Assembly: GCF_900110535.1 (NCBI RefSeq)
Contig: NZ_FOJA01000001.1
Location: 1,833,393-1,897,392, forward strand
Length of the DNA stretch: 64,000 bases
Reading direction: 5' to 3'
Source: Halobacterium jilantaiense
GTDB lineage: Archaea > Halobacteriota > Halobacteria > Halobacteriales > Halobacteriaceae
Part shown: one piece after another, positions 33,783-44,639 of the stretch
Numbering within the stretch: position 1 is the first letter of the stretch
Layout: every line of letters starts with the position of its first letter
Translations under genes and position numbers: made by a program
The notes under the pieces: model-generated
The model's database searches: none
What the model saw: the letters and a program-made list of their open reading frames with translations, nothing else
What the model was told of the DNA's origin: nothing

Positions 33783-34967
33783 TCAGTTCCCGGTCCACCG
33801 CAGCAGCGCGAGCGTCCCTTCGAACAGCACAATCATCGTGACGGCGACGATGACCGGGAGGACACCGGTCGGGTCGATGGCACCGGTCGCGGCCGAGATG
33901 CCGGCGAACGCCGCCCAGAACAGCAGCCGGCGGTCCTCCAGCCAGCGTCGCGTGACGACGCCGAGCATGATGGCGAGCATGATGAACAGCGGAATCTGGA
34001 AGACGACCGCGAGATACCCCATCACCATCAGAATGAGATTGAAGGTGGTGCCGAGCGCGAACGCCACGTCGGCGGTCGGGTTGGTGTACCCGACGAAGTA
34101 GTCCATCGTGTACGGGAGCACGACGAAGAACGCGAACACGACACCGAGCACGGCGAGCACCAGACTCGTCGGAACCGAGGCGAGGTAGTAGCGCCGCTCG
34201 TTCGGGTAGAGCCCGGGCCGCATGAACGCGTAGGACTCGTAGACGAACGCGGGCAGCGCGACGATGAGGCCGGCGAGGCTCGCGACCTTCAACTGGGTGA
34301 TGAGGAGTTCGAGGGGCTGGTAGATGCGGGGGTCGACGGCCTCTCCGCTCGGCAACACGCCGTTCCAGATGGTCGAGATGAGTGACTCGGTGAGCGGAAA
34401 GACGATGACGCTCGCCAGGCCGGCGATGGTGATGACGATGGCGAGCCGCTTGATCATCTCCTCGACGTGCTCCGCGAGCGGCGCTTCCTCGTCAGTCTCC
34501 GGGGCGCTCATCCCCATGCCGCCGGTGCCCGCAGGCTCCGGTGCGGAGTCGGCCGTGATGACGCTGTCGTCCTCGCCCGGGGCGGCCGGCCGGTCTCCCT
34601 CGTGGGCGGCCGGCCCGTCCGACTGGTGGTCGTCGTCGGCGAGCAGCTCCGGGTCGGTCGCCGGGGACTCGCCCTCGGCGAGGTCCGGTGGCACCCCGTC
34701 GTCGGTGCCCCACTCCCAGCCGTCGCCGCTGTCGCCGTCGTCGGCGCGCTCGACGGCCGTGTCGAGGTCGTCCCAGTCGACCCGGTTCGGGGTGTCGTCG
34801 ACCCGCTGTGCTGCTGGCGTCGGACCGGCCGACTCCTCGGCTGACGCGGCTGGCGCGTCGTCGCTCGACTCGTCGACGCGGCGGACGGCGGACTGGAGGC
34901 TCTCCCAGTCGGGGCGAGACGGGCGCTCGCCGGCGAGGTCGCGTCCGCCGTCCGATTCCTCGGCCAT
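33783..34967 (-). CDS. tatC: Twin-arginine translocase TatC (single-domain) with long acidic N-terminal extension
   Basis: This encodes 394 residues from ATG 34967. Residues 1-157 are a disordered, acidic, Pro-rich extension; residues about 158-390 are TatC with six membrane helices, starting AEHVEEMIKRLAIVI. Inside the extension a 16-residue motif occurs twice: RPDWESLQSAVRRVDE (18-33) and RVDWDDLDTAVERADD (62-77). An internal ATG at 34511 (MSAPETDEEAP) would give an ordinary 242-residue TatC. The duplicated motif argues that the longer form is translated. It is divergent from tatCt. Confidence 0.88.
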   Translation of the reverse strand: MAEESDGGRDLAGERPSRPDWESLQSAVRRVDESSDDAPAASAEESAGPTPAAQRVDDTPNRVDWDDLDTAVERADDGDSGDGWEWGTDDGVPPDLAEGESPATDPELLADDDHQSDGPAAHEGDRPAAPGEDDSVITADSAPEPAGTGGMGMSAPETDEEAPLAEHVEEMIKRLAIVITIAGLASVIVFPLTESLISTIWNGVLPSGEAVDPRIYQPLELLITQLKVASLAGLIVALPAFVYESYAFMRPGLYPNERRYYLASVPTSLVLAVLGVVFAFFVVLPYTMDYFVGYTNPTADVAFALGTTFNLILMVMGYLAVVFQIPLFIMLAIMLGVVTRRWLEDRRLLFWAAFAGISAATGAIDPTGVLPVIVAVTMIVLFEGTLALLRWTGN

Positions 34968-35057: not shown

Positions 35058-37241
35058 ATGAGTAGCTCCGGCTCGGACGGCATCGTCGGCCCGGAGACGG
35101 CGCGCGCCATCGGCACTGGCCGGGAGTCGATCGGCGTCGTGCTCCGCGCTGCCCAGGAGCGCCTCCAGCACGTCTTCATCGCGTTCGTCGTCGGCTTGCT
35201 CGGCGGTATCTTCCTGATGCGGCTGTACATCTGGCCGCAACTCGAGGCAGATCTGCTGGCGGCCGAAGCGCAGGTCATCGCACAGACGCCGTTCGACGTC
35301 ATCCTGATGCAGGTGAAAATCGGGCTGTTCGGCGGCGTCGCCGCGGCGGTTCCAGTTCTGCTCTACCACGCCCGGGAGCCGCTCCGGGACCGAGACATCA
35401 TCCCCGACGTGACGGTCAAACGCTGGCACGCCGCCGTCGTCGGCCTGCTGTGCATCGGGCTCGCGACGCTCGGTATCCTGTACGCGTACTTCCTGTTCTT
35501 CCCGCTGATGTTCGACTTCCTCGCCGGGAACGCGGTCGGCGCGGGACTCGCGCCGAAGTACTCCATCGTGAAGTGGACGGAGTTCATCTTCTTCCTCGCG
35601 CTGTCGTTCGCGCTGGCCGCCCAGCTCCCCCTCCTGATGGGGGCGCTGTCGTACTCCGGGGTCGTCCCCTACGAGGTGTTCCGCGACAAGTGGAAGTACG
35701 CCGTCATGGGCATCTTCGCGTTCGGCGCGTTCTTCTCCCCGCCGGACCCGTTCACCCAGATTCTGTGGGCGACGCCGCTCATCCTCCTCTACGGCCTGAG
35801 CCTCTACATCTCGAAGATACTGGTGACGATGAAGCGCGGCCGCGAACACGTCGACGTCTCCGGGGTGTTCCGGGAGCGCTGGAACCGCATCCTCGGCGTC
35901 GGCGTGCTCGGGTTCGCGGGCGGCTACGCGGCCGGGATGTACGGTGCCGTCGGGGCGTTCAACGACGGACTGGCGTTCATCGGCTCCCAGGTACGGGTAC
36001 CGACAGTCGCGGAGGCGCTGGGCGTGCCACCGGAGACCGGCTACCTGCTTCTCGGTGGCCTCGTCGCCGTCCTCGCACTGGTAGCTGCGGCGCTGTACTA
36101 CGCGTACGTCGCCGTCGACCGCGCCGCCCGCGTGGTCGCCGAACGGAACCGCCGGCCCGACCCGGCGGCCATCGACCTCGACGAACTCGACGCCGCGGGC
36201 GTCCGCGGCGCGCCGCCGGAGGCGTTCGCGGCGCTGAGCGAGGACGAGGCGCTCGCGACGGCCCAGCGCGCGCTCGACGACGGCGACGACGAGAAAGCTC
36301 AGCTCGTCCTCGACCGCTTCGACGAAATCCAGGCGGCCGCCGAGGAGGCGGCCGAGGCCGAGGACGCGGACGAGGCAGCGGGCGACGACTCGAACCCCGT
36401 CCAGAGCACGGCGGCGGGCATGATGGACGCGTTCACCGACGAAGAGACCACGGAAGACGACATCGGCGGCTACTACTACGACATCCGGTTCGTGCTCTCC
36501 AGCCTGCGCTCGCGGGCGTTCCACATCGTCGGGACGTTCATGGTCGTCATGGTGGCGCTGTTCGGCTGGCTGTACTACGGCGGCTTCGGCGACCTCCGGG
36601 ACGACTTCATCGCCCGCATCCCCGCCGAAGTCCAGCCGGAGGCCGCGGCCTGGCCGATCACCCTCCACCCGGTCGAGGCGCTGGTCTTCCAGGTGAAACT
36701 CTCCGTCGTCATCGCGGCTATCGCCGTCCTCCCGATGATCGTCTACTACCTCTGGCCGGCGCTCTCGGACCGCGGGGTCGTGACCGGCGACCGCCGCACC
36801 ATCCTCGTCTGGGGCGGTAGCATCGTCGTCGCGCTCGCCGCCGGCAGCTACCTCGGGTACAGCTTCATCGCGCCCGAAGTCATCTCCTACCTCGTGTACG
36901 ACGCGCTCCGGGAGGGGATGGTCATCAGTTACACCGTCAGCACGTTCGCGTGGCTCATCTTCCTACTGACGGTCGGTATCGGGCTGCTCGCTGACATCCC
37001 CGTGACGATGGTGCTGTTCCACGTCGGCGGCATCGTCTCCTTCGACACGATGCGGGCACGCTGGCGGGTGCCCGTCCTCGCCATCTTCGCCGCGTCCGCG
37101 CTGCTGACCCCGGACAGCCTCTACACGATGTTCGTCATCGCGCTCCCGATGGTCGCGATGTACCTCGTGGGGCTCGGGCTGCTGTACCTCGTCACGCTCG
37201 GCGGCCGGCGAGGCGGGTCGGGCCGGGCCGTCGGGGAGTGA
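35058..37241 (+). CDS. tatCt: Double-length TatC (TatCt)
   Basis: This 727-residue protein carries two TatC domains (about 25-260 and 470-720) separated by a charged linker, giving about 14 membrane helices. This double TatC is characteristic of haloarchaea, which export most secreted proteins folded through Tat. The second domain's AWPITLHPVEALVFQVKLSV mirrors the first domain's AQTPFDVILMQVKIGLFGGV. The start is ATG 35058 in a 90-base divergent spacer with tatC. Partner TatA proteins lie outside the window. Confidence 0.92.
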   Translation: MSSSGSDGIVGPETARAIGTGRESIGVVLRAAQERLQHVFIAFVVGLLGGIFLMRLYIWPQLEADLLAAEAQVIAQTPFDVILMQVKIGLFGGVAAAVPVLLYHAREPLRDRDIIPDVTVKRWHAAVVGLLCIGLATLGILYAYFLFFPLMFDFLAGNAVGAGLAPKYSIVKWTEFIFFLALSFALAAQLPLLMGALSYSGVVPYEVFRDKWKYAVMGIFAFGAFFSPPDPFTQILWATPLILLYGLSLYISKILVTMKRGREHVDVSGVFRERWNRILGVGVLGFAGGYAAGMYGAVGAFNDGLAFIGSQVRVPTVAEALGVPPETGYLLLGGLVAVLALVAAALYYAYVAVDRAARVVAERNRRPDPAAIDLDELDAAGVRGAPPEAFAALSEDEALATAQRALDDGDDEKAQLVLDRFDEIQAAAEEAAEAEDADEAAGDDSNPVQSTAAGMMDAFTDEETTEDDIGGYYYDIRFVLSSLRSRAFHIVGTFMVVMVALFGWLYYGGFGDLRDDFIARIPAEVQPEAAAWPITLHPVEALVFQVKLSVVIAAIAVLPMIVYYLWPALSDRGVVTGDRRTILVWGGSIVVALAAGSYLGYSFIAPEVISYLVYDALREGMVISYTVSTFAWLIFLLTVGIGLLADIPVTMVLFHVGGIVSFDTMRARWRVPVLAIFAASALLTPDSLYTMFVIALPMVAMYLVGLGLLYLVTLGGRRGGSGRAVGE

Positions 37242-37367: not shown

Positions 37368-38114
37368 TCAGTCGTCGCCCGGGCCCTGCTTGCCGTCGAC
37401 GCTGTGTTCGTCGGGCGCGTCCTCGAACTTCGAATTGAAGTACGTCCTGTTGGTCGCCTCGACGTAGACGGCGACGAACTTCGTGTCCTTCCCACTAATC
37501 GCGTGCTTGAGGGTCTCCGAGTGACCGACTTCGACGGTGTCGCGGTCGAAACCGCCCTTCGACTTGACCCAGTACGTGACGTTCAACGCTTCCTGATTCC
37601 AGCCGTCGAAGTGGACGTTCCCCCAGCCGTCGAACCGGACGTCGCTGTCGCGGGATTCCATGTCCTCGCACGTCACGTCGAAGGTCCGCGTCGCCGTGTC
37701 GCCGGAAATCTCCGCCGTGACGCCTTCGGCCTCGACGGTCACGGAGACGGTGAGCGTCGCCGACCCGCCCGGCTGGCAGTCGACGTCCGCGCGGACCTTA
37801 CTCGTCTGGCCTGTGCCGACGAACGGCTCTGAAACATTGTTCACCTCGACCGCGTCATCATTGGTCCCCACGGTGACGTCCGTGACATTCGCGTCGCTCG
37901 CCAGCTGGTTCTCTACGGCCACGAGGGTGAATCGGCCGTCTTCAACCTTCTCGAGGTCCTCCGTATGGTAGCCGACGAGGGCGTTGTCGTCGTCGGCGAC
38001 TGCGACGCTGACACCGCGGTCGGCGGCCACCGAACTGAACCCCATCGAGCCGAACACGAGGCCGGCGCTCGCGACGACCAGCAGCGCGACGCTCGCGGCT
38101 CTGAGTTTACGCAT
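37368..38114 (-). CDS. Secreted protein of the DUF1102/TasA-like signature group
   Basis: This encodes 248 residues from ATG 38114. It starts MRKLRAASVALLVVASAGLV, followed by GSMGFSSVAADRGVSVAVAD, the exported-protein signature (G-[ST]-x-x-F-[ST]...A-x-R...V-A-x-D) shared with the two DUF1102 proteins downstream. The C-terminal part carries GWNQEALNVTYWVKSKGGFD and is acidic. A cysteine pair near 135/178 (VDCQPGG, VTCEDM) may form a disulfide. Its start overlaps the stop of the regulator gene by eight bases, so both are one operon. Structural subunit role is an inference. Confidence 0.75.
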   Translation of the reverse strand: MRKLRAASVALLVVASAGLVFGSMGFSSVAADRGVSVAVADDDNALVGYHTEDLEKVEDGRFTLVAVENQLASDANVTDVTVGTNDDAVEVNNVSEPFVGTGQTSKVRADVDCQPGGSATLTVSVTVEAEGVTAEISGDTATRTFDVTCEDMESRDSDVRFDGWGNVHFDGWNQEALNVTYWVKSKGGFDRDTVEVGHSETLKHAISGKDTKFVAVYVEATNRTYFNSKFEDAPDEHSVDGKQGPGDD

Positions 38115-38694
38115 TGTCGAGCTCCGCGGGCGCGGGGCCGCGTCCAAGCGCCGTCTGCCGGGCGTAGTACCGGTGGACGACGGCCGAGACGGCGAACGCT
38201 GCGACGGCGGCCACCCCCCACGCGAGGTCCGGAAGCATCGCGAACGGCCACGCGTCCAGCGCGACCGCGCCGAGCAGCGTCGCCGCGACGGCGGAGAGTC
38301 CGAGGTAGTACTCGCTCCACGGAATCTCTCGCCCCTTCACGACGTCCATGTAGACGCGGACGTCGTCGATGGCTGGCGTCGGCTCTACGACCCCCCTGTT
38401 CTTGTCGAACGATACGACTCCCGCGTCGTCCATCTTCGGCAGGTGGGACTGCTGGAGTGCGGTGTAGACGCGCTTGCGCTCGTCGTAGGAGACGTCGGCC
38501 ACGTCCTCGCCGTACTCCCACGCGGCGACCTGCTCGGCGACGTCGCCGAGTTCGACGGCTTCGTCTCTCCCCTTGAGCATGTGGAGCGCGTACCGGCGGC
38601 GTCGGCTGGACAGCACGTCGAAGACCTCGTCTTCCGTCGGCTCCGACGGCTCCGGCGACTCCGCCACGTCCCCCCGCTGACGTGTGGATGACAC
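38107..38694 (-). CDS. Membrane-anchored winged-helix regulator, DUF7344-like
   Basis: This encodes 195 residues. An N-terminal winged helix (about 20-100: DEVFDVLSSRRRRYALHMLK, ...YDERKRVYTALQQSHLPKM) is followed by two or three membrane helices (about 128-175). This is the haloarchaeal DUF7344 arrangement. The start is ATG 38694, and its stop overlaps the next gene by eight bases. The DNA-binding head with membrane tail suggests it senses envelope or export state and controls this locus. Function inferred. Confidence 0.78.
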   Translation of the reverse strand: MSSTRQRGDVAESPEPSEPTEDEVFDVLSSRRRRYALHMLKGRDEAVELGDVAEQVAAWEYGEDVADVSYDERKRVYTALQQSHLPKMDDAGVVSFDKNRGVVEPTPAIDDVRVYMDVVKGREIPWSEYYLGLSAVAATLLGAVALDAWPFAMLPDLAWGVAAVAAFAVSAVVHRYYARQTALGRGPAPAELDNA

Positions 38695-39122
38695 AACAAT
38701 CCGACAACCAGTTGCACGGCTAATAAATGTTGGCTACCTTTTATTTCTCGCTGACTGGTTACGCATCTGCTGTAATCGGCGCGATACGATGCGGCTGCCG
38801 AACGAGATGACGCGAGACAGCGTCTCAAGCTGGTGGTTTTTCCACCCGCCATCGGTGACGGTTCGGCGCACCTCCGCCTAGATTAAGCGGTCGTTCAGGC
38901 GTGTCGTTCGCTCGGAACCGTGTCCGACCCCTGCGGTCAGAGCGCTCCATCCGGTTTCGCTCCGACCGATAACCGCGCCTTTCGCCGCGCCGCCGATTCT
39001 CAGTCCGTGCGTGAATCTGTCTCTGGTGTGTCAATACTACCTACCAAGGGGATGATGGGTCGAGTGAGCGCTTCCGGGGCGTGCGGTGCCCGCGGGAGTG
39101 CAGCAACGAGGTATCCACAACA
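38695..39122. promoter_or_regulatory. Intergenic region with divergent promoters
   Basis: This 428-base gap lies between the divergent regulator operon (left) and the DUF1102 pair (right). A/T-rich stretches at 38724-38750 (TAATAAATGTTGG, CTTTTATTTC) fit the regulator promoter. AACCAGT (about 38707) and ACTGGTT (about 38753) flank it as an inverted repeat. The motif CAATACTACC at 39032-39041 recurs before the 40660 gene. No gene or RNA recognised. Confidence 0.45.
39032..39041 (+). promoter_or_regulatory. CAATACTACC motif, copy 1
   Basis: CAATACTACC lies 81 bases before the ATG of the first DUF1102 gene. An identical 10-mer occurs before the 40660 gene, 14 of 20 bases matching when the flank is included. 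It may be a shared promoter or operator of the secreted-protein genes. Confidence 0.4.
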
Positions 39123-39662
39123 ATGCAACGTCGCAAGTTCATCGCAGGACTCGGATCGCTCGCTGCCGCCGGGGCAGCAGGAATTGGTACGGGCGCGTTC
39201 ACGCAAGTGACTGCAACGCGGAACGTGGATGTCGAAGTCGCGGGAGACAATTCGGCGTACCTTCAGCTCAAAGGTCTTGCATCGAGCTCCTCTTACGTGA
39301 CCGACGACGGCAGCGGTAGCACGCTCTCTATCGACCTGGACTCCGGTAACAGCACGGCGAACGGTGGTGACGGAGTCAACCCCGATGCAGTCACGAAAAT
39401 CAACCAGGTCTTCAAGATCAAGAACCAGGGGACTCAGGAGGTCGAACTCTCCATCAGTAAAGCGGGAGACAACGACGGCCTAGTCAAGTTCTATCCCAGC
39501 ACCAGCTACGCCGACTCGATCAGTAGTAACCCACTCACGTTGGCGGCTGGTGGTTCGGAGACCATCAGCATCAAGATCGACACTGAAGGAGAGGGTGTCA
39601 GCGACGGCGACGAGCTGCTCGACTCGGTCACCTTCACCGCCGCGGCGACGTCTAGCCCGTAA
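39123..39662 (+). CDS. DUF1102 secreted protein (TasA/camelysin-like), first copy
   Basis: This encodes 179 residues. The N-terminus MQRRKFIAGLGSLAAAGAAG has Tat-like RR and a hydrophobic core, leading into GTGAFTQVTATRNVDVEVAG, then a beta-rich domain. NPDAVTKINQVFKIKNQGTQ is shared with the next gene. The G-T-G-A-F start and F-x-I-x-N-x-G motif mirror TasA/camelysin-type fibre proteins processed by a SipW-type peptidase. G+C is lower than in flanking genes. The second copy begins 15 bases later. Confidence 0.75.
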   Translation: MQRRKFIAGLGSLAAAGAAGIGTGAFTQVTATRNVDVEVAGDNSAYLQLKGLASSSSYVTDDGSGSTLSIDLDSGNSTANGGDGVNPDAVTKINQVFKIKNQGTQEVELSISKAGDNDGLVKFYPSTSYADSISSNPLTLAAGGSETISIKIDTEGEGVSDGDELLDSVTFTAAATSSP

Positions 39663-39677
39663 TACGAGGATTGACAC

Positions 39678-40313
39678 ATGAACCGGAGACAATTCATAGC
39701 TAGCCTGGGGGTGATTGGAAGCGGGGGCGCAGCTGCCATCGGAACGGGTGCATTCAGTAGTACTGAAGCAGAACGGAACATCGACGTAACCGTCGCCAGT
39801 GACTCGAATGCGCTTCTAGGAATTCAGCCGACTGATGGCCCCAACGGGAACTACGTCGACACAACCTCGAACGACGCGCTGGCGATTAATCTCACGGGGA
39901 GCAACAACAATATTGGTGACGGCCTCCATGGCGGCCAGGGGCTGAACGCCAACGCGATTACCAGCATCGCGAACGTGTTCGAGATCAAGAACCAGCAGGC
40001 GCAGACTGTCGAAGTGACGGTCACCCCGCTCGCGTATGGTGACATCGAGGGTTCGGTGTTCCCGCCGGGAGTTGATGGCGCACTCGCAGTTCTGCTCGTT
40101 CCAGAGAACCCAGACGACAACGTCGAGGTCGACATTGAATGGGACTATTCGGGATGGTTCCCTGTTCCCGAAGATATCTCATTTATTGGGATTAAGAACC
40201 TGGATCCGGGACAAAAACTGACGTTCAATCTCATCGGACTGGTGGTGTCAGCCGAGGCGATAGGCAACGCCAGCATCAGCGACCAAGTCGAGATCCACGC
40301 TCGGGAGATGTAA
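39678..40313 (+). CDS. DUF1102 secreted protein (TasA/camelysin-like), second copy
   Basis: This encodes 211 residues. It starts MNRRQFIASLGVIGSGGAAA with GTGAFSSTEAERNIDVTVAS, matching the first copy and the 37368 protein. NAITSIANVFEIKNQQAQTV is the shared core. A longer C-terminal half (EDISFIGIKNLDPGQKLTFN) is specific to this copy. Codon use is A/T-richer than the region average (GAAGATATCTCATTTATTGG). Three bases separate its stop from the microprotein ATG. Confidence 0.75.
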   Translation: MNRRQFIASLGVIGSGGAAAIGTGAFSSTEAERNIDVTVASDSNALLGIQPTDGPNGNYVDTTSNDALAINLTGSNNNIGDGLHGGQGLNANAITSIANVFEIKNQQAQTVEVTVTPLAYGDIEGSVFPPGVDGALAVLLVPENPDDNVEVDIEWDYSGWFPVPEDISFIGIKNLDPGQKLTFNLIGLVVSAEAIGNASISDQVEIHAREM

Positions 40314-40316
40314 ACC

Positions 40317-40448
40317 ATGGCAGATGACCCAACACTGAGCACGTACGGAGAGATGATCAACACCGAGTTCGACCTCTCCGACCAGGACATAAGCCGGGAG
40401 GCAATCAACGAAGAGATAGCGGACCTCTTCACAGATAGTACCGAATAG
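40317..40448 (+). CDS. 43-residue acidic microprotein
   Basis: This encodes MADDPTLSTYGEMINTEFDL, then SDQDISREAINEEIADLF and the tail TDSTE. It has no signal peptide, cysteines or membrane segment, is acidic and largely helical, with EINEEIADLF-like amphipathic C-terminus. The ATG at 40317 lies three bases after the second DUF1102 stop, and the hairpin at 40471-40495 lies 22 bases downstream, so it belongs to that operon. I recognise no family. A chaperone or regulatory role is speculation. Confidence 0.6.
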   Translation: MADDPTLSTYGEMINTEFDLSDQDISREAINEEIADLFTDSTE

Positions 40449-40470
40449 TCTCGTTAACCGAAGACCGCCG

Positions 40471-40495
40471 GGACAAACCCTGACGGGTCTTGTCC
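40471..40495 (+). terminator. Hairpin terminator of the DUF1102 operon
   Basis: GGACAAACCC (40471-40480), loop TGAC, then GGGT-C-TTGTCC (40485-40495) form a 10-bp stem with one bulged C, followed by ATTTA. The hairpin lies 22 bases after the microprotein stop and closes the 39123-40448 transcription unit. Confidence 0.6.
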
Positions 40496-40594
40496 ATTTA
40501 ATTCGACCGCGTACCGCTGCTGGAAGATATCACGTCGAGATTCTGGGGTGAAGCCCCTGCCGGATAATGCCATTTTGACTCCGTTCAGGCTCCC

Positions 40595-40604
40595 CAATAC
40601 TACC
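40595..40604 (+). promoter_or_regulatory. CAATACTACC motif, copy 2
   Basis: The same 10-mer as at 39032-39041, here 55 bases before the ATG at 40660. Its right flank CCCGCTAGTGGG is an interrupted palindrome around CTAG. Confidence 0.4.
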
Positions 40605-40659
40605 CGCTAGTGGGTCGTTGTCCCGGGTGACTGGACGGGGGTCGTCCGGCACGAGGCAC

Positions 40660-42105
40660 ATGGGTCGACGCACACTCGCACTCGCTGCGGCGTTCGCGCT
40701 CGCGGGGACACTCGTCCTCCCGTCGGCAGCCGCGCCGCTGCTGGGCGGTCCCAGCGACGCCGTGGACGCGCGCGGCGAGGTGGAGCTGCTGCCGGCGACC
40801 GACAGCGAGTACGCGTCTGTCGGGGCGGACGGCGAGCTGGCGCTGGACCTCGCGCCGGGCGACGCGGGTCTGAACCCGGGTGCGGTGACGGCGTTCGAGG
40901 AGGTGTTCTACGTTCGGTACACGGGCGACCGGTACGCGGAGGTCTGGGTGACGGCGGACTCGGCGGCGGTCGCCTTCGAGGTCGACGGCCAGCGGGCGGG
41001 CTCGGCGGCGGAGCGCGTGCGCGTCGGTCCCAGCGAGGTCGTGCCGGTGAGCGTCCGAGTGAACACGAGTGCGGGCGACGTGCGCCCCGGCGAACTGACG
41101 GTCCACTCGCGCGTGGCCGACGGCGGCGAGCGCGAGACGACGGACGAGCCGGCCACCGACGACACCGAGGTGTCGATTCCGGCGGTCCAGCGCCGGGCGG
41201 CGGGCTCGGATTCGGTGTCGTTCACGATGCTGTCACCGACGGCCGGCGATTCGCTCACCCTCGACACGCGACTGGTCGTCGCGGGCGAGGGCGACCGGGC
41301 GGCGGTCCTGGAGTCCCTGACAGTGACGCCCGCGTCGAGTGACGCGATGACGGTGGACGTCGAGCGGACCGGGACGGAGCCGGTGCCGAGCGCCGCGGCC
41401 GACGAACTGGGCGCGGTCCGGGTCGACGCCAGCGCCGCCGTCGACGCGGCGACGTTCCGGCTGACGGTCGACGACGCGTTCCTCGACGACGTCGCGGTGG
41501 CGGACGTCGGCGACCTCTCGTTGTACCGCCAGAGCGACGGCGAGTGGAGCGAGGTCCCGCTGTCGGTCGTCGGCGAGCGCGAGGGCGGCGTGGTCGTCGA
41601 GGGGACGGCGGACGACTTCTCGACGTTCGTGCTGGCGGCGGAACGCCCCGACATCGCCGTCAGAGAGGCGTCCGTGTCGCCGTCGTCGATCGGGGCCGAC
41701 GACTCGGCGACAGTGACGGCGACCGTCGTCAACGACGGCGGCGCGGCGGGCGAGCGGACGGTGCCGGTGACCGTCGACGGTGCGGTGGTCGCGGAGCGCA
41801 GCGTGCGTCTCGACGCGGGCGAGACGGCGACCGTGACGGCCCCAGTCGCGCCCGAATCGGGCGAGCACGCGATTGCGGTGGATGGCGTCGACGCCGGCAC
41901 GCTCGTCGTCGAGGCCGGGGACAGCAGTTCCTCGGACGACGGAACGGACGGCGACGTCTCGGCGGCCGAACCCGCCGACGCCGCGGACGACCCGCTGGCC
42001 GAGCCCGCGGGCTTCGACGTCGAGACGCTCGCGGCGGCGGGATTCGCGGTCGTGCTGGTCGTCGTCGGCATCGCCGCGTGGCGTCGGCGGGGCGACGAGG
42101 AGTGA
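40660..42105 (+). CDS. Membrane-anchored multidomain protein: DUF1102-like, PGF-pre-PGF-like and CARDB domains
   Basis: This encodes 481 residues. A signal peptide (1-28) is followed by a DUF1102-like domain with NPGAVTAFEEVFYVRYTGDR (about 77-96). The middle carries DLSLYRQSDGEWSEVPLSVV and DDFSTFVLA, like the PGF-pre-PGF domain. A CARDB-like Ig domain (about 335-420) precedes a C-terminal TM helix and WRRRGDEE tail. The tail reads EPAGFDVETL rather than the PGF of archaeosortase substrates. The signal peptidase gene starts 64 bases downstream. It may anchor or cap a fibre; this is an inference. Confidence 0.75.
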   Translation: MGRRTLALAAAFALAGTLVLPSAAAPLLGGPSDAVDARGEVELLPATDSEYASVGADGELALDLAPGDAGLNPGAVTAFEEVFYVRYTGDRYAEVWVTADSAAVAFEVDGQRAGSAAERVRVGPSEVVPVSVRVNTSAGDVRPGELTVHSRVADGGERETTDEPATDDTEVSIPAVQRRAAGSDSVSFTMLSPTAGDSLTLDTRLVVAGEGDRAAVLESLTVTPASSDAMTVDVERTGTEPVPSAAADELGAVRVDASAAVDAATFRLTVDDAFLDDVAVADVGDLSLYRQSDGEWSEVPLSVVGEREGGVVVEGTADDFSTFVLAAERPDIAVREASVSPSSIGADDSATVTATVVNDGGAAGERTVPVTVDGAVVAERSVRLDAGETATVTAPVAPESGEHAIAVDGVDAGTLVVEAGDSSSSDDGTDGDVSAAEPADAADDPLAEPAGFDVETLAAAGFAVVLVVVGIAAWRRRGDEE

Positions 42106-42169
42106 GTGGCCGGGGCGGCCGCGCGGCGCAAGCTACTTGAGCGGCTGACACGTCGGTGCGAGCGACCGG

Positions 42170-43330
42170 ATGACGCCACGCCGAGCGCTCACGCTGACCG
42201 GAGAGGCGGCGGTGGTGCTGGTGGTCGTGGCGCTGGCCGCCGGCCAGGTGCTCGGCTACCCGGTGTTGCTCGGGTACGTCGAGACCGGGAGCATGTCGCC
42301 GACGATGGAGCCGGGCGACGGCTTCGTCTCCGTGCCAGCGCCGCTCGCGGGCGACGCCGAGGAGGGCGACGTGGTCGTCTTCCGCGCGCAGGAACTCCAC
42401 GGCGGCGGCCTCACCACGCACCGCGTGGTCGGCGAGACCGACCGCGGATTCGTCACCAGGGGTGACGCCAACCCCTTCACCGACCAGGACGGCGACGAGC
42501 CGCCGGTGAAACGCGGCCAGATCGTCGCCCACGCGCTCCAGGTGAACGGCGAGGCCGTCGTAATTCCGAGCCTCGGCACGGGCGTGACGGCGATACAGGA
42601 CGCGTTCTCGAACGCGCAGCGCCGCCTCGCGGCGGCGACCGGGTCGCGGTCGCTGCTCGGCACGCAGGGCCTGACGTACATCCTGTTCGGGCTGTCGGTG
42701 CTGCTGTACGTCGTCGACCTGCTGCTGGACGACGGGCCGGGCCGGGACCGCAGCCGGAGCCGCGACCGCGAGAGCGGCGTCTCGCCGGGACTCGTCGTCG
42801 CCGCGCTCGCGGCAGTACTCGTCGTGTCGGCGACGGCCGCGATGGTGGTGCCCGCGAGTACGGAACAGTTCGGCGTCGTGAGCGCCGAGTTCAGCTCGGA
42901 GAACCCCACCGTCATCAGGCAGGGTGCGTCCTCGACGTTCGACTACGGAGTGGCCAACGGCGGTTTTGTGCCGGTGGTGTCGTACCTCGAACCCGCCAGC
43001 GAGGGGGTCGCGGTCGAACCGAACCGCCTCCGGGTGGGGTCGCGCGGCGAGGCGACCGCCCGGCTGACACTGTCAGCCCCCGACGACACGGGCTACTACC
43101 GGCGCTACGTGACCGAACACCGCTACCTCCTGTTGCTGCCCGCTCCGCTTCTCGACGCACTCTACGAGCTCCACCCGTGGCTGCCCATCGTCGCCGTCGA
43201 CAGCGTGCTGGCGTCCGTCGTCGCCGTCCTCGGGCTGGTGTTCCTGCGCGGCCGGCGCGTGCGGGTGCGCCGCCGGGAGAGCCGCCACGGTCGGTCTCTC
43301 GCCGGCCGGCTGCGACGACTCCTCCGGTGA
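42170..43330 (+). CDS. Signal peptidase I, SipW/ER type (S26B)
   Basis: This encodes 386 residues. Catalytic Ser41 is in YVETGSMSPTMEPGD; the general base is His84 (TTHRVV) rather than Lys, the mark of archaeal/eukaryotic and SipW-type S26B peptidases, with Asp99 in RGDANPFTDQ. After the peptidase (1-170) come further membrane helices and an extracytoplasmic beta domain (about 235-320) that resembles the TasA-like core (FDYGVANGGFVPVVS). It is thus larger than a plain signal peptidase. In Bacillus the homologous SipW processes TasA and TapA, and its position here fits that role. Confidence 0.88.
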   Translation: MTPRRALTLTGEAAVVLVVVALAAGQVLGYPVLLGYVETGSMSPTMEPGDGFVSVPAPLAGDAEEGDVVVFRAQELHGGGLTTHRVVGETDRGFVTRGDANPFTDQDGDEPPVKRGQIVAHALQVNGEAVVIPSLGTGVTAIQDAFSNAQRRLAAATGSRSLLGTQGLTYILFGLSVLLYVVDLLLDDGPGRDRSRSRDRESGVSPGLVVAALAAVLVVSATAAMVVPASTEQFGVVSAEFSSENPTVIRQGASSTFDYGVANGGFVPVVSYLEPASEGVAVEPNRLRVGSRGEATARLTLSAPDDTGYYRRYVTEHRYLLLLPAPLLDALYELHPWLPIVAVDSVLASVVAVLGLVFLRGRRVRVRRRESRHGRSLAGRLRRLLR

Positions 43331-43409
43331 GCGTCGGCGGTCGTTTCGCCCGCCACCACCGTTCAACCAATCGACAATTCTTTGTCGGCGGACCAGAGTG
43401 TGAGCGCAC

Positions 43410-44639
43410 ATGACAGGGGAGACGCGGTGGCTGCGGCTCCGTGCGTTCGCCGGCGAGTGGTTCGTCGTACTCGTCGTCGCGTTCGCGGTGCTGGCGGCCG
43501 CAGGGGGGTACGCAGCGGGGACTGCGCACGCCGCACCGGGGACCACGACGGAACGCCAGACCGTCGAACACTGGGCCGTCGGCGGCGAGTTCGGGCACTC
43601 CGCGACAGTGACCCGAGAGAATCCGGTGTTCGAGGTGGGGGAGACGCTGGAGGGGCGGTCGACGTACTTCGTCGGCGCGTCGCCGATCCTCGACGGCACC
43701 TACAGGGTCTCGTACGCCGACCCGACCGGGGACGCCGAACCGGTCGACGTGACGGCGACGGCGACGCTCGTGCTGTCGTCGACTGGCGAGAGCGCGACGT
43801 ACTGGACGGACCGCGAGCGCCTGGCGACCACGGACGCGACGCTCGCGCCGGGCGAGACCACGTCGGTCGCCTTCGACGTGAACGCCAGCCGGGTCGACGA
43901 ACGCGCCACAGACATCCAGCAGGGGCTCGGCGACACCGCCGGCGAGGTGACCGCGACCATCTCGGTCGCAGTCAACGCCACCGGCGCGGTCGCCGGCAGC
44001 GAGTACCCGGTCTCGTACACGCAGTCCGTCCCGCTCACTATCGCCGGGTCGACGTACGGCGTCGACGCGCCCGGCCCGACCAGCGAAGCGGCCACCACCC
44101 AGCGCACGGTTCAGGTCGCGAAGTCCTACGGGCCCCTGTGGACCGTCGGCGGCCCGCTCCTGCTCCTCGCGGGGCTGGCCGGGCTCGGAGCGCTCGGCGC
44201 GGCGTACCGCCGCGACGAGCCGGGGCTGACCGACGCCGAACGCGACTACCTCGCGTTCCGCGACGAGCGCGCCGAGTTCGACGAGTGGGTGGTGCGGGCG
44301 CGGCTGCCGGCAACCATCCGCGACCGCGAGTGCGCCGACGCCGAGTCGCTGGCCGACCTCGTGGACTACGCCATCGACGCCGACGTCGGCGTCGTCGAGG
44401 ACGCCGCCAGCGGCTCGTTCTACGCCGTCACTCGCGACCTCCTCGTCGTCTACGAGCCGCCGGCGGAACCGGACGTGGTGTCGCCGCTCGCGGGCGATTT
44501 CGACGCGCTCGGCGTGACGACCGACCGCGACCCCGACGAGGACCTCGTCGAGGGCGTGACCGCCGACTCGGGTCCGGAAGCCGACGACGACGGCAAAGCA
44601 CCGCCACCGGACTCGCCGACCGTCGAGGCCGAGGACTGA
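43410..44639 (+). CDS. DUF5305 membrane protein
   Basis: This encodes 409 residues. An N-terminal TM helix (about 15-38) is followed by an extracellular beta domain (about 45-235) with GGEFGHSATVTRENPVFEVG. A second TM helix (about 243-262) leads into a cytoplasmic acidic tail rich in D/E. The arrangement is that of DUF5305 proteins, which repeatedly neighbour S26B signal peptidases in haloarchaea. Its role is unknown; assistance in export or assembly of the secreted proteins is inferred. The ATG at 43410 is 79 bases after the signal peptidase. Confidence 0.8.
   Translation: MTGETRWLRLRAFAGEWFVVLVVAFAVLAAAGGYAAGTAHAAPGTTTERQTVEHWAVGGEFGHSATVTRENPVFEVGETLEGRSTYFVGASPILDGTYRVSYADPTGDAEPVDVTATATLVLSSTGESATYWTDRERLATTDATLAPGETTSVAFDVNASRVDERATDIQQGLGDTAGEVTATISVAVNATGAVAGSEYPVSYTQSVPLTIAGSTYGVDAPGPTSEAATTQRTVQVAKSYGPLWTVGGPLLLLAGLAGLGALGAAYRRDEPGLTDAERDYLAFRDERAEFDEWVVRARLPATIRDRECADAESLADLVDYAIDADVGVVEDAASGSFYAVTRDLLVVYEPPAEPDVVSPLAGDFDALGVTTDRDPDEDLVEGVTADSGPEADDDGKAPPPDSPTVEAED

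Follow-up and report, generated by a model that had tools for sequence, protein, structure and literature searches.

Tafi pili, or Tat-fimbriae, and their proteins TafA, TafC, TafE and TafF have reportedly been described by Galeva et al. (2025, iScience 28:111793). A literature search for work on Tafi pili or on the solved structure 9P0A returned only a citing paper on A. baumannii, which presents Tat-fimbriae as thin Tat-exported appendages of haloarchaea with TafA as the core component (PMC12687288). The entry 9P0A carries the title 'Structure of Natrinema sp. J7-2 Tafi pilus' in the fold search, and its pilin is 100% identical over 215 aa to a gene product of the Natrinema locus L169. At this locus, the genes for a TafC-like protein and a DUF7344 regulator are located on one strand and those for the pilin, an anchor protein, a signal peptidase and a DUF5305 protein on the other. 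Donor-strand filaments of archaea further include the Sulfolobus thread (7PNB) and the Pyrobaculum bundling pilus AbpA (7UEG) (PMC9715654; PMC9674648), and the latter is structurally related to TasA (PMC9674648). In the TasA-TapA-SipW system of Bacillus subtilis, the fibre subunits possess an N-terminal donor strand and are processed by an S26B peptidase encoded in the same operon (PMC9674648).

Here we analysed a window of 64,000 nucleotides from the genome of Halobacterium jilantaiense. The seven-gene locus at 37368-44639 of this window is, with high probability, the Tafi (Tat-fimbria) pilus locus of a Halobacterium species, and the same degree of confidence applies to the proposed scheme as a whole. 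The locus encodes a TafC-like protein, a DUF7344 regulator, two pilins, a membrane-anchored protein, an S26B peptidase and a DUF5305 protein, each of which has a counterpart in Tafi loci. Read in this way, it comprises all the genes with which a salt-loving archaeon forms a thin hair on its surface. The identity of the locus, the Tat signals, the linkage to the peptidase and the expected cleavage are supported by sequence and structure comparison. The preliminary description had proposed that an extracellular fibre is built here, which is very probably correct, with the Tafi pilus of 9P0A as the nearest known system. A new element of the scheme is the distribution of modules: the shaft pilins combine a Tat signal with an N-terminal strand of fixed length, the anchor has a pilin domain without this strand, and the TafC-like protein carries the strand on Ig-like domains. 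This distribution suggests roles at the base, in the shaft and at the tip, so that the companion genes gain a testable division of labour that includes a dedicated peptidase.

The gene order of the window is that of the Natrinema locus (TafC-like, DUF7344, pilin, anchor, peptidase, DUF5305), except that one pilin gene is found next to the anchor gene there and two in the window. Both systems have homologous Tat pilins, with the strand module GTGAFSSVEADR in Natrinema sp. J7-2, whereas the C-termini of the TafC-like proteins are unrelated and the main split of the peptidase tree separates the two enzymes. The Haloarcula-type locus L027 contains matching gene types (TafC, DUF7344, TafA, TafE, TafF, peptidase and DUF5305) in a different gene order. 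Its TafA, TafC, TafE and TafF all score above the NCBIfam cut-offs, whereas the Taf models all stay below them in the window, where the protein at 37368 matches TafC (49.8, cut-off 410) and those at 39123 and 39678 match TafE (61.4 and 59.8, cut-off 155) and TafA. These cut-offs are of the equivalog type and were drawn around Haloarcula proteins. They are missed as well by the pilin that forms the solved pilus, with scores of 53.5 against 190 and, for TafE, 76.5 against 155; therefore, the Taf cut-offs do not define the Tafi system. A link to the solved pilus came from a profile of 68 pilins, for which 9p0a_C ('Pilin', E 4.9e-31) was the one convincing chain in the PDB; the second pilin alone also matched this chain in a phmmer search (E 7.9e-11). 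The window contains Tat-signal pilins homologous to the solved Tafi pilin within a linked set of homologous TafC-like, TafF-type, peptidase, DUF5305 and regulator genes.

The two pilin genes, at 39123..39662 (+, 179 aa) and 39678..40313 (+, 211 aa), encode clear paralogues with 42% identity over 131 residues, which match TafE with E values of 9e-17 and 2.7e-16 and are the proposed shaft subunits. An N-terminal signature had been noticed in these two proteins and in the product of 37368, and the motif G[ST]xxF[ST]-AxR-VAxD was indeed found exactly three times in six frames of the 64 kb window, at these places, with 0 matches in 200 shuffles. The VFxIKNQ core pointed out for 39123 and 39678 is present in both. 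The preliminary description had missed the Tat (RR) signal of both pilins, which should accordingly cross the membrane in a folded state. The alignment of 68 pilins shows no variation at R3, R4, A25, F26 and R33, and A25 and L47 delimit a stretch that always comprises 22 residues without any indel, mostly with V or I at positions 35, 37 and 39. The cleavage site GTGA^F together with the proposed donor strand corresponds to GTGAFTQVTATRNVDVEVAGD in pilin 1 (39186-39248, +) and to GTGAFSSTEAERNIDVTVASD in pilin 2 (39741-39803, +). Cleavage at A^F is suggested by the structure, since the modelled 9p0a_C chain has 188 residues, which is what remains of 215 once the 27 ending with GTGA are removed.

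Pfam provided no informative family name for the pilins besides DUF1102, which stayed just below its cut-off (20.7 vs 22.2 bits). Structures were predicted for pilin 1 and the TafC-like protein. The model of pilin 1 is a pilin-like beta sandwich, in which the strand region has low confidence, and it matches donor-strand pilins in general, including FimA, the thread, the Tafi pilus and bundling pili. It resembles 9P0A modestly (TM 0.48, E 0.011), and E values of 4e-3 and 0.019 were obtained for 7PNB and 7UEG, respectively, neither of which was matched by the pilin sequence profile in the PDB search.

The locus had initially been regarded as a possible TasA/SipW-like system. A comparison of folds with TasA and bundling pili had been suggested in this connection; for pilin 1, the bundling pilus 7UEG was among the matches but TasA was not among the 50 listed. 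TasA was also not detected in the PDB by the pilin profile at E values up to 10, the pilins had no Pfam match to the TasA (camelysin) family, and the SipW model (NF046067) gave 24.9 bits for the peptidase against a cut-off of 190 bits. A strict TasA/SipW-type matrix fibre operon, with the protein at 40660 in the part of TapA, would share its plan with the window: an S26B peptidase is encoded next to secreted fibre subunits whose first residue, following a G-rich site, is aromatic. Donor-strand assembly is known for TasA, too (PMC9674648). The match to the TasA-related 7UEG (E 0.019) points in the same direction. Yet the window pilins are routed by Tat and not by Sec signals, they show no detectable sequence kinship to TasA, the partners include DUF5305, DUF7344 and TafC-like proteins, and the Tafi relatives are far closer. 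We therefore consider a TasA/SipW-type operon highly improbable. On the level of predicted folds, the link to TasA would be only indirect, through the Pyrobaculum bundling pilus, although by analogy the Tafi system may work like TasA.

The anchor gene at 40660..42105 (+) encodes 481 aa with a Sec-like signal, a pilin domain without the strand, a CARDB domain (E 2e-7) and a C-terminal transmembrane helix. An echo of the pilin core (AVTAFEEVF) had been seen in this protein, and it reflects real homology: in the hhalign comparison its profile aligned with that of the pilins across the whole pilin domain (probability 99.4, E 9e-22). The proposal that it serves as an anchor also agrees with its being a membrane-anchored relative of the pilins. 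Its family profile matches TafF of L027 (E 2e-12), making it the proposed TafF counterpart at the pilus base. Among 31 anchors, most have fewer residues in the strand stretch, from which the F, the R and the valines are missing; next comes the pilin domain, and the chain closes with the transmembrane helix. The signals of the anchors are more hydrophobic than those of the pilins, with mean hydropathies of 2.64 (2.07-3.48) and 1.58 (1.24-2.07), respectively.

The TafC-like protein (248 aa) is encoded at 37368..38114 (-). Its start is most likely at 38114, which corrects the earlier annotation and results in an overlap of 8 bp with the regulator gene. The TafC match reached 49.8 bits with an E value of 2.6e-13. 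The signal is Sec-like (hydropathy 2.70, no RR), whereas Haloarcula TafC has a Tat-like RR signal and the Halorubrum relatives are Tat-like as well. Together with the RR pattern, the signal hydropathies suggest that in this species the shaft leaves by Tat and the end proteins by Sec. The N-terminal module shared with the pilins was recovered both with a single sequence (E 1.6e-7) and in a profile-profile comparison (E 3.5e-22). In the TafC-like proteins, the strand module, GSMGFSSVAADRGVSVAVADD at 37989-38051 (-) in the window according to alignment and motif scan, occupies the same positions as in the pilins and is followed by Ig-like domains, two of which are predicted in the window model (pLDDT 82). 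Since the TafC-like and pilin profiles align beyond the strand too, a remnant groove may be present.

The protein could donate a strand and shows no pilin groove, from which we infer a position at the tip or cap. Alternatively, it could belong to the same pilus as an assembly chaperone, a role suggested by the pairing of its gene with the regulator gene and by the Ig-like domains of the model, which had the pilus chaperones Caf1M, CsuC and FaeE among the top folds with E values of about 1e-4. These matches reach a TM of only about 0.3 with an rmsd near 14 and are generic for tandem Ig domains. Moreover, the C-terminus varies among species, and by eye the end of Haloarcula TafC looks like a lectin of the laminin-G type, which an adhesin would be expected to have. 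A chaperone function thus appears rather unlikely, though it deserves consideration next to a function at the tip.

The peptidase gene at 42170..43330 (+) encodes 386 aa with the residues S41, H84, D99 and D105. The Ser41/His84 pair had been identified correctly, and 41 homologues share both residues, as well as D99 and D105, without exception. These residues and the homology to archaeal and SEC11 enzymes place the protein in S26B, with TIGR02228 scoring 48.6 bits, just under its cut-off of 51.85. The nearest named relative, from Halobacterium sp. TGN-42-S1, is 86% identical. The C-terminus is extended by a transmembrane helix, an extracytoplasmic domain and another transmembrane helix. A second S26 peptidase of the genome is shorter (253 aa) and lacks this C-terminal module, which characterizes the enzyme of the locus as a dedicated paralogue. 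The unnamed module between the transmembrane helices (42770-43225, +), absent from the second peptidase, occurs in all 41 aligned homologues with conserved G252, Y319, P324 and P336. Its window copy had no Pfam family match, and hhalign detected no kinship to the pilin domain (probability 2.3). The DUF5305 membrane protein, a proposed assembly partner, follows at 43410..44639 (+, 409 aa), and the DUF7344 winged-helix regulator with two transmembrane helices is encoded at 38107..38694 (-). Both had been recognized in the preliminary description, and the respective Pfam models matched with 154.3 bits (PF17231, cut-off 29) and 111.3 bits (PF24035, cut-off 27.8).

In the proposed mechanism, the peptidase would cleave the pilins at GTGA^F and thereby free an N-terminal segment of fixed length, which would act as the donor strand and fill the groove of a neighbouring pilin, yielding a thin and stable fibre. 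The protein at 40660, with a groove but without a strand and fixed in the membrane, would take up the first strand and form the base, and the 37368 protein, with its strand and Ig-like domains, would donate a strand at the tip or cap. Assembly at the membrane may be helped by DUF5305 and by the additional module of the peptidase, DUF7344 would regulate the divergent units, and adhesion and biofilm formation are likely roles of the pilus. Extending this scheme, we tentatively envisage Tafi pili as a modular display scaffold with a groove only at the base, groove and strand in the shaft and a strand only at the tip, the ends being exported via Sec and the shaft via Tat, into which enzyme-bearing subunits of the pilin-SNase-lamin-tail type could be built, placing an extracellular nuclease on the fibre.

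A very different reading would have the secreted proteins stay unpolymerised, as separate Tat-exported surface proteins that carry enzymes or adhesins, with the peptidase as just their maturase. The variation of pilin-domain proteins among loci, in number from none to five and in size up to about 860 aa, would fit such a reading, as would the nuclease-fused pilin module that stands alone elsewhere in the genome. It has little probability, however, given that the solved pilus 9P0A is built from a homologue of these pilins whose gene has the same neighbours, and that the proteins of the locus complement one another in their strand and groove modules.

Linked conservation of the peptidase with the secreted proteins, for which a survey of co-occurrence had been suggested, was evident from 146 haloarchaeal genomes. 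The pilin was found in 111 of these, DUF5305 in 118 and the peptidase, counted at E 1e-19 or better, in 112. Pilin and peptidase occurred together in 110 genomes, the pilin only in 1, the peptidase only in 2 and neither in 33 (Fisher p 3e-29, with genomes taken as independent of kinship). The Tafi gene set is thus present in about three quarters of the sampled haloarchaeal genomes. In 60 loci picked by the peptidase, including the window, DUF5305 was present in 54, a pilin and a TafC-like gene in 52 each and the regulator in 51, and the median gap between the DUF5305 gene and the peptidase reading frame was 46 bp. When 80 named loci, some of them on short contigs, and the window were considered, DUF5305 was present in 75 of 81.

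In the peptidase tree, seven Haloarcula-type Tafi loci are located on one side of a branch with support 100/98, while the window groups with its genus and many haloarchaea across the midpoint split with modest support (94/89), on a side holding 42 of the 59 rows. The Natrinema 9P0A locus belongs to the Haloarcula-type side and a second Natrinema locus (L170) to that of the window. Two genomes, G006 and G055, carry both types, with a single locus for each (L026 and L025; L028 and L029). The analysis brings out the window-side clade as the largest Tafi branch, and we know of no experimental study of any of its members.

A 945-aa orphan protein with a Tat signal, an N-terminal Tafi pilin module, DUF4350, an SNase nuclease and a lamin-tail domain is encoded outside the window in the same genome (L167:2812-5646(-), equivalent to G000:C1:2384811-2387645) and holds its one further full pilin module. 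The pilin-nuclease fusion recurs in other genera, with matches that start at residue 1 or 2 and reach at least residue 846 in at least 7 genomes including this one; many other genomes have this nuclease without the pilin part, the match starting only behind it. Within Tafi loci, pilin modules are fused to laminin-G or beta-helix domains (L076:5582-6829(+), L043:12120-14615(+) and L117:7802-9358(+)). The pilus would carry surface functions through such fusions, whose partners are nuclease, lectin-like and beta-helix domains.

The only tatC genes of the genome, a TatCo (33870-34472, -) and a double TatCt (35058-37241, +), adjoin the locus. Adjacency of TatCt was also seen in L012/L076 and L013 but is missing from the other loci, so the neighbourhood may be due to chance. 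A functional coupling was set aside, as only two near relatives share the arrangement with the window in the set of 60 loci. A scan for promoters and terminators of the bacterial type was empty, which is uninformative as the models are bacterial and the host is archaeal. The sequence AATACTACC occurs only twice in the window, at 39033 and 40596 (+), where it precedes the gene of pilin 1 by 90 bp and the anchor gene by 64 bp, and is possibly a shared promoter element; conservation of the second copy (40596) was seen in L012/L076 and L013. The gap between pilin 2 and the anchor gene contains, immediately behind pilin 2, a short open frame of acidic character with about 43 codons, beginning MADDPTLSTYGEMINTEFDLS, which extends over 40317-40448 (+).
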